From the NCBI RefSeq assembly GCF_018130065.1, contig NZ_JAFCME010000013.1:62001-126000 (forward strand): a stretch of 64,000 nt of DNA, in the 5' to 3' direction. The position numbers were made by a program, and so were the translations under genes. Shown here in pieces: positions 12,991-30,436 of the stretch (within the stretch, counting starts at the first letter, position 1; every line of letters starts with the position of its first letter). The stretch comes from Bradyrhizobium sp. AUGA SZCCT0158. Lineage in GTDB: Bacteria > Pseudomonadota > Alphaproteobacteria > Rhizobiales > Xanthobacteraceae. The notes beneath the pieces were generated by a model that saw nothing but the letters and a program-made list of their open reading frames with translations, was not told the origin of the DNA and made no database searches.

Positions 12991-13152
12991 ATGGATGAAA
13001 TCGAAATCGCTGCGTCGGATACCGTGACTGATGCGGAACTCGATGAGGTCAATGGCGGCTTTATCTTCATATTGGTGGGTGCGGCGGCGTTCAGCACCGG
13101 CTTTTTCGCCGGCTACGGGGCGGTCAGGTTTGCACAGGACATGTCGAAATAA
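12991..13152 (+). CDS. Short peptide with double-glycine leader (53 aa)
   Basis: Begins MDEIEIAASDTVTDAELDE and continues VNGG, matching the bacteriocin-type leader pattern in which cleavage follows Gly-Gly (about residues 22-23). The following 30 residues are hydrophobic and glycine-rich (FIFILVGAAAFSTGFFAG) and end AQDMSK, so the core could insert in a membrane. AGGAGG at 12978-12983 is a strong ribosome binding site. Class II bacteriocin-like or other exported peptide are possibilities. No C39 peptidase transporter is visible in the window. Confidence 0.7.
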   Translation: MDEIEIAASDTVTDAELDEVNGGFIFILVGAAAFSTGFFAGYGAVRFAQDMSK

Positions 13153-13681: not shown

Positions 13682-13867
13682 TTAGCCCTGAGTGAGTTGC
13701 TGCATAATCTGTTGAAACATTTGGGCCGGATCGTTCTGGCCACCCGCTCCTGCTTTGATTTGGGTGAAGGCGCGCAAGGGGAGCGGGAGCCAGCCGCCAG
13801 CCACCGCATCGAGCGCTTCGGCGGATAGCTCGCGCGCGCTCTTCGCATTGATTGCATTTCCAGTCAT
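13682..13867 (-). CDS. Short peptide with double-glycine leader (61 aa)
   Basis: The leader region reads SARELSAEALDAVAGG, a clear double-glycine type ending with Gly-Gly at about residues 23-24. The core begins WLPLPLRAFTQIKAG and ends in a Gln-rich amphipathic tail (QMFQQIMQQLTQG). AAGGAG lies 7 bases upstream of the ATG at 13867; a GTG one codon earlier is less likely. Core and leader differ from the 53-aa peptide 0.5 kb away, so they are not recent duplicates. Likely exported after leader removal; product and processing enzyme unknown. Confidence 0.7.
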   Translation of the reverse strand: MTGNAINAKSARELSAEALDAVAGGWLPLPLRAFTQIKAGAGGQNDPAQMFQQIMQQLTQG

Positions 13868-14104
13868 CACAGTTCTCCTTTGATTTAGCCGGCGCGATCA
13901 TCCAACGCTGGTGCGGCCACGTTTAGCGTCAACCCTCTCGTCGCGAAGTGACGGCGACCACACCGCCGGCCGTCGCGCGCATCGACAAGGCGCGACACGA
14001 CGCGGGTAGGCTTCGCGAGTGCATCAGCGTCACGGCGCGGACAGCCGAGCGGACGGCACCACGTCATCGAAGTGCGCCGAATGGGCACGTTGGTTCGCTG
14101 AATG
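13868..14104. other. Gene-free segment upstream of the tRNA-like pair
   Basis: No reading frame with a credible ribosome binding site was found here. The sequence is GC-rich and holds a near but mis-spaced -24/-12-like match at 14083-14098. Nothing else was supported. Confidence 0.5.
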
Positions 14105-27792: not shown

Positions 27793-28572
27793 TCAGGACG
27801 CGGTGTTCGATTGACCGTTCGACACCGGGTCGTCGCCGACGGCGTGCAGCACGAATGGTCTGGCGACACGCCCAGGTTCGGCGACAGGAATGGACGATCT
27901 GCGACTTGCGCGCTTTGGCCGTGGTGCGGTCTGATTTTCGGTGGAGCGAAACAACGCGTAGTCGCGGCTGAATAGCCAGCGCGATGTTTGAAAGACGCCG
28001 TGGGTGATGAACAGAGCGGCGAGCACGTCGATCGAATAGTGGTAGTGGCCGAGCAGCACGACCGCGCCGAAGAACGCGGTCAGCGCGAGAAAGAATACCC
28101 GCCATTGCAAGATGTGCCAGAACGCCAGCGCCGCCAGGAACGGCATTCCGGTGTGACCGGAAAAGAAGAGATCGCTGCCGTAAAAAATGGAGTTGAAGAA
28201 CGGCGCCGGCTGCTGCGGATCGATCGGGGACGGCGCCATGTGGGTGAGCGCCACGAATACGGCGCGGACCACCAGGAACAGCGCCGTGGCCTTCAGCGCG
28301 AACGGCAACCGGTTCGGCCGCCAGGCCAGCAGTCCCGCCGTGATGACGAAGGCCGTGAACGTACCGTAGATGAACAGAAAGCGGACGTTGTAGGGCCCGA
28401 CGCGGCTCAGCACAAAATCCGTGACGTGGTTGCTGGCATGGACCGTAGCATAGGTGACAGCGGCGAAGATCGCGATGCTGCTGGCAGAGAGGAAAGCGGC
28501 GCCCTCGCACAGCGAGCGGACATACGCGCGCGTGCCAAACAGCGTGCGGTAAAGCCGAATGGTGTGTTCCAT
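27793..28572 (-). CDS. PAP2-related, sphingomyelin-synthase-like membrane protein
   Basis: About 259 aa with six hydrophobic segments. The catalytic region reads YGSDLFFSGHTGMPFLAALA and VLLGHYHYSIDVLAALFITH: SGHT and HYHYSIDV match the SMS/PAP2_C subgroup, which transfers phospho-headgroups between lipids, rather than classical PAP2 phosphatases. A basic Arg/Lys-rich cytoplasmic tail ends the protein. GGAGGAG precedes the ATG at 28572; a longer start at 28617 is less likely. Candidate reaction: headgroup exchange on a diacylglycerol, ceramide or hopanoid-linked lipid; not shown by sequence alone. Confidence 0.8.
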   Translation of the reverse strand: MEHTIRLYRTLFGTRAYVRSLCEGAAFLSASSIAIFAAVTYATVHASNHVTDFVLSRVGPYNVRFLFIYGTFTAFVITAGLLAWRPNRLPFALKATALFLVVRAVFVALTHMAPSPIDPQQPAPFFNSIFYGSDLFFSGHTGMPFLAALAFWHILQWRVFFLALTAFFGAVVLLGHYHYSIDVLAALFITHGVFQTSRWLFSRDYALFRSTENQTAPRPKRASRRSSIPVAEPGRVARPFVLHAVGDDPVSNGQSNTAS

Positions 28573-28716
28573 GGCGCCTGCTCCTCCGTTCGCGAAATCT
28601 GCTACGGCTGGCATCACGCGGCCGCCAATTGCGGCGGCTCATCGGCGGTCTGATCGTAGGATTGGATAGCAGGCGGCTCTAAAACAAAGGCCGTCTGCCG
28701 CTGCTTGCCTACGCTG

Positions 28717-28893
28717 TTATCGGTAGCCGAATGCGACAAACCCCGGCGGAAGCGGCTGCGGATTGAGAGCGACCCGCTCGAGCGCGGAGGTAAACCGGTG
28801 CTGCAGTCCGCTGACGATGATGATGCCGCCCGCAACACGGTCGAGTTCAGCTGATGTCAATGCTTCGTCTTTGGCAGGAACTGAATGGGTCAT
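28717..28893 (-). CDS. Short peptide with double-glycine leader and NPQPLPPG motif (58 aa)
   Basis: Begins MTHSVPAKDEALTSAEL and continues DRVAGG, a double-glycine leader with its Gly-Gly near residue 23. The core IIIVSGLQHRFTSALERVAL is followed by NPQPLPPGFVAFGYR. The Pro-rich NPQPLPPG segment is unlike the two other double-glycine peptides in this window. AAGGGAA precedes the ATG at 28893, chosen over a non-ATG start at 28920. Probably exported after cleavage; target and processing enzyme unknown. A GCCGCCAATTGCGGCGG dyad lies 100 bp beyond the stop. Confidence 0.72.
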   Translation of the reverse strand: MTHSVPAKDEALTSAELDRVAGGIIIVSGLQHRFTSALERVALNPQPLPPGFVAFGYR

Positions 28894-28998
28894 GGTTGTT
28901 TCCCTTGGTGAGGCGGGCACGGCGCCGTCGCCGAGCGGACATTACCTCGCTCGCCCTGATTGGTGTGTGAGCCAAATCACTCAGGGCTGGCTCGGCCG

Positions 28999-30255
28999 CT
29001 AGCTGATCGTTCCCACGATCGCGCCCATCAGGCAGGTGGCCAGCGTGCCCGAGACGATCGACTTCAGCCCGAGCGCGTTGATCTCCTCGCGGCGCCCGGG
29101 TGCCATGGTGCCGAGGCCGCCGATCATGATGCCGAGGCTCGCGAAGTTGGCAAAGCCGCACATCGCATACAGCATGATCAGCCGCGAGCGCGGATCGAGC
29201 GCGTCGGGACCGAGCTTCGATAGATCGACATAGGCGATCAACTCGTTGAGCACCGTCTTGGTGCCCATAAGGCTTCCCGCCGTGATCGCCTGCGACCACG
29301 GCAGGCCCAACAGCCAGCATACCGGCGCCATCAGATAGCCGAGCAGCCGCTGCAGCGAAATCTTCGCGCCGCCGATCTCGGGCAACAGGCCGAGGATGGC
29401 GTTGGCGAGATAGACCAATGCCACCAGCACCAGCAGCATGGCGACGATGTTGAGCAGCAGCTCCAGTCCGGACGTGGTGCCCTTGACGATCGCATCCATG
29501 GTGCTCTTCACTTCCATGTCGGTGTCAGCAGCGGCCAGCATTCCGCCAGTCCGCTTGTCAGACGTCTCCGGCACCATGATCAGGCTGATCAGAATCGCCG
29601 CGGGTGCGCCGAGCACCGAGGCAATGACGAAATGCGCCGCCGCATCCGGGATCAATGGCGCGAGAAACGTGGCGTACAGCACCAGCACGGTACCGGCGAT
29701 CCCGGCCATGCCGCCGGTCATCACCATGAACAATTCGCTGCGGGTGAGTTGCGAAAGGTATGGGCGGATGAACAGGGGCGCCTCGACCATGCCGAGGAAG
29801 ATGTTGGCGGCGGCGGACAGCCCGACCGCGCCGCCGACGCCGAGCGTGCGTTCCAGAAGCCAGGCCATGCCGCGCACGATCGGCGGCAGCACCCGCCAGT
29901 AGAACAGCAGCGTGGTCAGCACGCTCATGACCAGGATGATCGGCAGCGCCTGAAACGCCAGGATGAAATCGGCGCCCGGCGCCTTGAGGTCGAAGGGAAG
30001 CGTGCCGCCGCCGAGATAGCCGAACACGAAGGAGGTGCCGGCGCGGGACGCTGCCGCGATGATATTGACCGCGTCATTGATGGCGCCGAACGCCTTTGCG
30101 ACCAGCGGCAGCTTGAGCAGCACCAGCGCGGTAAGCACGGTGACCGCAAGCCCGACCGCCATCTGCCGCCATGACACCGCGCGGCGGTTCTCGCCGAGCG
30201 CCCACGCGATTCCCAGCAACGCCAGCACGCCGAAAGCCGATTGCAGTTGCAGCAT
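28999..30255 (-). CDS. Concentrative nucleoside transporter (NupC/CNT family)
   Basis: 418 aa, about ten membrane segments. CNT motifs are visible: FVFGYLGGGTLPFDL, IVMSVL-type core helices, SAAANIFLGMVEAPLFIRPY, LFMVMTGGMAGIAGTVLVLY and the C-terminal GTKTVLNELIAYVDL with YAMCGFANFASLGIMIGGLG. It imports nucleosides with protons or sodium. The ATG at 30255 gives the usual family N-terminus (MLQLQSAFGVLALL); an upstream in-frame start adds an implausible Cys-rich segment. Confidence 0.95.
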   Translation of the reverse strand: MLQLQSAFGVLALLGIAWALGENRRAVSWRQMAVGLAVTVLTALVLLKLPLVAKAFGAINDAVNIIAAASRAGTSFVFGYLGGGTLPFDLKAPGADFILAFQALPIILVMSVLTTLLFYWRVLPPIVRGMAWLLERTLGVGGAVGLSAAANIFLGMVEAPLFIRPYLSQLTRSELFMVMTGGMAGIAGTVLVLYATFLAPLIPDAAAHFVIASVLGAPAAILISLIMVPETSDKRTGGMLAAADTDMEVKSTMDAIVKGTTSGLELLLNIVAMLLVLVALVYLANAILGLLPEIGGAKISLQRLLGYLMAPVCWLLGLPWSQAITAGSLMGTKTVLNELIAYVDLSKLGPDALDPRSRLIMLYAMCGFANFASLGIMIGGLGTMAPGRREEINALGLKSIVSGTLATCLMGAIVGTIS

Positions 30256-30436
30256 GATCTCGAAGTCCCCCGGTCGATTATGGCAGCGGGGGACTTGCAA
30301 GCGCAATGCCGGGCAGCCCTTCGCCGCCTGGCATTGACAGCCCGTGGGCATTGACAGGGGGATCAGGGTCGTTCACGGCGTAACCAACAACAATGCGAGC
30401 GGACGCACGCTTCGAAAAGCAGGATACCGGCCTCAA

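Follow-up and report, generated by a model that had tools for sequence, protein, structure and literature searches.

A short open reading frame in Bradyrhizobium sp. AUGA SZCCT0158, predicted to carry a bacteriocin-type leader ending in Gly-Gly and a proline-rich NPQPLPP motif, raises three questions: whether it is a gene, which machinery would export its product, and what the motif is for. The window, i.e. the whole stretch of DNA that was analysed, is 64 kb long and belongs to a genome (G000) of 7.35 Mb in 67 contigs. Translation of the minus strand from 28893 to 28717 gives 58 residues, MTHSVPAKDEALTSAELDRVAGGIIIVSGLQHRFTSALERVALNPQPLPPGFVAFGYR; the plus-strand reading of 28717–28893 is interrupted by stops. 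Thus the predicted coordinates and length of 58 aa were correct, the gene being on the minus strand, and both named segments, ELDRVAGG and ALNPQPLPPG, are found in this product. The features of the gene are as follows.

28717..28893, minus strand: gene of the GG-leader NPQPLPP peptide, 58 aa, ATG at 28893, stop included
28900..28906, minus strand: AAGGGAA, ribosome-binding-type sequence upstream of the ATG
28825..28893, minus strand: leader, residues 1–23, ending in Gly-Gly, with L(−12), E(−8), L(−7) and V(−4)
28720..28824, minus strand: predicted mature peptide, residues 24–58 (IIIVSG...ALNPQPLPPGFVAFGYR), cysteine-free, cleavage being predicted
28744..28764, minus strand: NPQPLPP codons (20-base pattern at 28745–28764)

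The back-translation of NPQPLPP is found once within the 64-kb window; none of 100 shuffles contains it. A profile built on 11 copies retrieved 12 full-length copies from 9 of the 265 genomes of the genus, with two copies each in G000, G012 and G216; three partial profile matches (L072, L073 and L074) were left out of the 12. Scanning one genome per species (84,980 species) yielded 11 loci, nine of them with the leader; these nine come from the same genomes as the genus carriers and are counted once. A match at L007 (E = 4.8e-4) was discarded, as its frame does not contain the motif. The exact string LDRVALNPQPLPP is also present, without the leader, in unrelated longer proteins of Sphingomonas sp. 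JC676 (L048) and of a Solibacteraceae MAG (L049). The second copy in G000, on contig C29, is 69% identical to the window peptide over residues 1–56 and is flanked by genes resembling the LysR regulator and the META-domain gene of L042, an arrangement common to relatives such as L042 and L044 (Pfam was run on the L042 genes). At least four carriers (G000, G217, G218 and G012) are closely related, the transporter DNA of the others being 93–94% identical to that of the window.

NPQPLPP is invariant in all 12 copies, none has a cysteine in the core, and their C-termini are aromatic and often basic. The frame and the start region are kept throughout, and in the 11 other copies a run of purines containing AGG precedes the ATG at the same place (AAGG in ten, GGAGG in G267). 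Over the 66 pairs of copies, mean pS is 0.46 and mean pN 0.18, with pN below pS in 65 pairs. The peptide has no match in Pfam and NCBIfam at E ≤ 1, and no chain among the solved structures matches the core at E ≤ 10. Neither plasmids nor phages yielded a match to the peptide at E ≤ 1, and the GG-LNPQPLPP pattern is likewise absent from the viral contigs; an origin as a phage or plasmid gene is thus unsupported.

Counting back from Gly-Gly, L(−12), E/D(−8) and L(−7) are present in all 12 leaders, and position −4 is mostly V. The recognition sequence of ComA is given as Leu(−12)-X3-Glu(−8)-Leu(−7) (PMC6363468). The leader logo of NHLP/N11P precursors is described in PMC2887384, and by our own count the window leader has six of its eight features. 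No NCBIfam family, curated bacteriocin-leader models included, matches the peptide at E ≤ 1, and the double-glycine label therefore rests on the pattern and on the exporter. Judged by its sequence, the gene encodes a double-glycine-leader peptide, as the original prediction had it. Homologues without the leader or with a broken frame, the two outcomes named there as fatal, were not what we observed: the pattern and the frame are kept in all 12.

The exporter was sought among transporters with a Peptidase_C39 domain. G000 has four such matches in three transporters, and the window's contig has none. The Cys/His/Asp catalytic pattern is found in one of the three only, an NHLM-type transporter on contig C67 near 249 kb, which is NHLM_micro_ABC1 (TIGR03796, 1060 bits against a cut-off of 853.3). 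Beside it are NHLM ABC2 and HlyD genes (TIGR03797 and TIGR03794, both above their cut-offs), and the cluster also encodes a short GG peptide rich in glycine. In the genus, 67 of the 265 genomes have a TIGR03796 match above the cut-off, among them eight of the nine carriers of the peptide; in the ninth (G206) the match covers 531 of 710 positions, and the gene stops at the contig end. With this cut gene counted, exporter and peptide co-occur in nine of nine carriers. The hypergeometric probability for eight of nine is 8.6e-5 with relatedness ignored, a value that overstates the co-occurrence, given the close relationship of at least four carriers. The exporter is also above the cut-off in 59 genomes of the genus that do not have the peptide.

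Direct linkage was found in B. hipponense (G133; L045/L114), where the peptide gene is on the same strand as, and directly behind, ABC1, ABC2 and a TIGR03896-like protein scoring below the cut-off. Within the DNA stretches examined, this is the one copy of the 12 linked to the exporter. The surroundings of the peptide and exporter in B. hipponense also include an autotransporter with a curlin repeat (L045:7195–10180, minus strand) and small ORFs whose repeats look curlin-like by eye. Short GG ORFs are present in eight of the nine NHLM loci scanned for them (L058, L114, L117–L122 and L213, with L078–L087 and L123 left out), L121 being the exception. One of these eight belongs to the family of the window peptide and another to a second kind.

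In this second kind the motif directly follows Gly-Gly, and cleavage there would leave LNPQPLPP as the mature end. Six loci of the genus have this form, in G199, G206, G216, G012 (one intact and one broken) and G222, and a third G012 locus is another broken copy. The broken copies of G012 are at L223 and L232, and the intact one is on another contig. L(−12) and L(−7) are present in five of five second-kind leaders, and E/D(−8) in two of five. In G222 (L213) roughly 1 kb and one opposite-strand gene separate it from a partial NHLM HlyD gene; the HlyD fragment (130 residues) scores 92 bits against the TIGR03794 cut-off of 156, and the ABC1 gene is on another contig. TIGR03796 is above its cut-off in three of the five second-kind genomes; of the other two, G206 carries the truncated gene and G199 (70% complete) lacks a match above the cut-off. 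Given the partial HlyD, the ABC1 gene on a separate contig and the exporter above the cut-off in three of five genomes, the G222 linkage supports a common exporter less strongly than that in B. hipponense.

The window itself contains two further GG-leader ORFs, and the peptide gene is flanked by two identifiable genes.

28999..30351, minus strand: upstream neighbour, Na+-dependent nucleoside transporter (PF07662, PF01773, PF07670)
27793..28617, minus strand: downstream neighbour, PAP2_C protein (PF14360)
12991..13152, plus strand: GG-leader ORF (ELDEVNGG) with a hydrophobic core, possible cargo of the same exporter
13682..13870, minus strand: GG-leader ORF (ALDAVAGG) with an unrelated core, possible cargo of the same exporter

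Hence the window gene is indeed the third leader gene in 16 kb, as predicted, the cores of the other two being unrelated. A 2.1-kb query across the site of the peptide gene matched 251 of 257 genomes of the genus; among the matches listed, nearly all are to the transporter part. In G217, G218 and G012 (L237, L236 and L238, respectively) the nucleoside transporter and PAP2 genes enclose another GG-leader ORF, one that lacks NPQPLPP and has two cysteines in its core. Behind that ORF there is an imperfect copy of the transporter 3' end, 80–91% identical over 63–66 bases; no repeat of the transporter 3' end was found at the G000 site. As the GG ORF differs between the same flanks in G000 and in these three genomes, unrelated GG peptides share one site in close relatives. 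The earlier suggestion that one export machine serves a peptide family is thus largely borne out by the single intact C39 exporter, the co-occurrence and the linkage in B. hipponense and G222, and the finding that three relatives have another GG peptide at this site adds to it.

Two known classes can be compared with this family. It resembles class II bacteriocin and ComC-type GG peptides in the short leader with L(−12), E/D(−8), L(−7), mostly V(−4) and GG, and in that a C39 exporter is encoded in the same genome; it differs from them in the NPQPLPP core, in having no NCBIfam match, and in that its type of core also occurs behind Sec-like N-termini. With NHLP/N11P precursors (TIGR03793, TIGR03798; exporter TIGR03794/03796/03797; PMC2887384) it has in common the GG site and the co-occurrence of exporter and precursor, with NHLM exporter genes beside one of the 12 copies. 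Unlike these precursors, it has a 23-residue leader that is not of the nitrile-hydratase or Nif11 type and matches no NCBIfam family, one NHLP/N11P-type leader family having nearly 90 conserved residues (PMC2887384); its core contains no Cys, and maturation genes are found at one locus only. The combination of a GG peptide with a C39 exporter is known. In the open-licence PMC literature, a scope outside which most subscription papers fall, we found no description of the NPQPLPP family, of the core, of NHLM together with double-glycine peptides in Bradyrhizobium, or of nitrile hydratase leaders in that genus.

The original prediction also placed NPQPLPP in other short hypothetical proteins. The motif does recur, but it is not specific to leader peptides, since several unrelated proteins carry it, and for this reason NPQPLPP alone was rejected as a family marker. 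The corresponding DNA pattern has 125 matches in 99 of the 265 genomes of the genus, compared to 8 for the reversed control. The pattern accepts Phe as well: 12 matches encode NPQPFPP (the three inspected are permease-like by eye) and 113 the Leu form. The latter comprise 27 loci from the pattern scan, 20 covered by other searches, and 66 that were sorted by script into 33 tails of DUF2189 proteins, 13 N-termini of murein endopeptidases and 20 others, two of which are DUF2189 tails by eye. The motif is near the N-terminus in a murein endopeptidase (PF03411) and in a DUF1254 protein (PF06863); a DUF2189 membrane protein (PF09955) has it in the tail, and an HxlR-type regulator (PF01638) contains it too. 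For the DUF2189, endopeptidase and DUF1254 groups, the Pfam assignment comes from a single protein each, the remaining ones being assigned by likeness. Loci L012, L013 and L146 show the motif in a DUF2189 tail, an endopeptidase and a DUF1254 protein, and have look-alikes across the genus. In wider samples the pattern was found in 26 of 398 genomes of the phylum (8 control matches) and in 13 of 297 genomes of the order (3 in the control). Judged by eye, three of the 18 phylum-sample loci outside the window's order are in plausible long frames and 15 in short or spurious ones.

Five small proteins with a core similar to that of the window peptide have a Sec-like N-terminus (by eye) followed by IIIV[SG]G and LNPQPLPP[KR]. 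Three of them (L025, L072 and L164) form one family by likeness, and L199 belongs to another family of the order; the fifth, L073:1363–1890 (minus strand; G270), has four tandem 14-residue ALNPQPLPPK units. These proteins have the IIIV[SG]G strand and the following LNPQPLPP[KR] in common with the window peptide; they differ from it in the Sec-like N-terminus that replaces the GG leader and in having up to four tandem units (L073). The GG-family profile matches L072 at E = 1.1e-5 and L073 at 1.0e-4, with much of the score coming from the motif. Pfam assigned no family to L072, L073 and L199, and the G270 protein has no plasmid match at E ≤ 0.1. At L197, a Sec-like N-terminus is followed by three tandem motifs. 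In the host genome NP[QH]PxPP occurs at three places only, in both GG peptides and in a tail resembling that of DUF2189 proteins, and by that test the host has no Sec-type cousin.

We favor the reading, with a probability of roughly 0.58, that the product is an exported, probably unmodified peptide, a cargo of the NHLM/C39 exporter, and that its NPQPLPP segment binds a partner outside the cytoplasm. The gene, its conservation, the leader pattern, the exporter, the linkage at one locus and the sharing of the motif are what the DNA itself provides for this reading. Recognition of GG leaders, their cleavage and export by C39-type exporters are established for such systems. In the host, the NHLM-type exporter of contig C67 (HlyD, ABC1 with the peptidase, and ABC2) would recognise the 23-residue leader and cut after Gly-Gly, and a 35-residue, cysteine-free and probably unmodified peptide would leave the cell. 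The peptide genes would then be dispersed, exchangeable cargo of one exporter. We infer cleavage, export and the unmodified state of the peptide, as well as its binding role: outside, the rigid LNPQPLPP segment would most likely be a ligand for some conserved partner, extracellular or in the envelope, as the motif is invariant and used behind several kinds of export signal, and the same segment with a similar IIIV[SG]G strand is found in small Sec-like proteins. The presence of the motif in DUF2189 tails and in the HxlR-type regulator, which are not obviously exported, speaks against a purely extracytoplasmic role.

A broader version of the docking idea, which we regard as speculative and rather unlikely, sees in LNPQPLPP a docking motif that proteins of this bacterial order would carry as a portable module outside the cytoplasm, with one envelope partner reading all carriers and the GG peptides as the diffusible form. 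Its carriers might comprise the N-termini of the endopeptidases and DUF1254 proteins, the Sec-type repeat proteins and the two C39-exported GG kinds.

The main rival of the docking ligand is a bacteriocin-like peptide, also exported via C39, with membrane-active hydrophobic and aromatic ends and NPQPLPP as a rigid hinge between them; we consider it a possible explanation, though on balance not the expected one. It would agree with the patchy distribution (9 of 265 genomes), the different GG ORF at the same transporter/PAP2 site in G217, G218 and G012, the intact and broken second-kind copies in G012, and the aromatic, often basic C-termini. However, toxins of this sort change fast, whereas the motif is invariant in 12 of 12 copies and the gene is under purifying selection; proteins with Sec-like N-termini have a similar core, and no immunity gene was recognised among the two flanking genes.

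The B. hipponense locus suggests another alternative, that the peptide is a RiPP precursor whose core is chemically modified before export. There the peptide gene lies at one end of a cluster (L114, L115) encoding two radical-SAM proteins (Pfam above cut-off; B12-binding and TIGR03975 below cut-off), a Trp_DMAT-type prenyltransferase, split LanB-type N and C proteins and YcaO. Such maturation genes are beside one of the 12 copies. The window gene has a PAP2 protein and a nucleoside transporter as neighbours and no maturation enzyme, and we recognised no maturation genes among those listed near the other copies (mostly by eye, with two contigs of just 7.1 and 3.7 kb); family searches for neighbours covered the window, L042 and L045. 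In G182 (L121) a cluster looks similar (by N-terminal likeness only), but the peptide is about 1.9 Mb away from the exporter. A shared maturation enzyme is thus not supported, and since no maturation genes were recognised at the window and most loci and the core is cysteine-free in all copies, we consider the peptide probably unmodified and a RiPP precursor improbable. We give equally little credence to an exported intercellular signal: GG peptides elsewhere include cell-to-cell signals (PMC7018657), but the flanking genes here encode a transporter and a PAP2 protein and no receptor, and few species have the peptide. That the frame is no gene, or a decayed one, is hardly credible, for although the peptide has no Pfam or NCBIfam match and its frame has a weak codon-usage score (1.7, with the start taken at GTG 28920), below that of the overlapping plus-strand frame 28705–28854 (4.5), so that conservation and not codon bias makes the case for the gene, this reading is contradicted by the frame, start region and substitution pattern conserved in 12 copies.

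The occurrence of a similar core behind two export signals is unusual and suggests that function resides in the core and not in the route. Which cargo an NHLM exporter accepts could be tested with this exporter and its peptides, which are exchanged at one site. If NPQPLPP is a docking motif, its partner would explain why this string recurs in many proteins.
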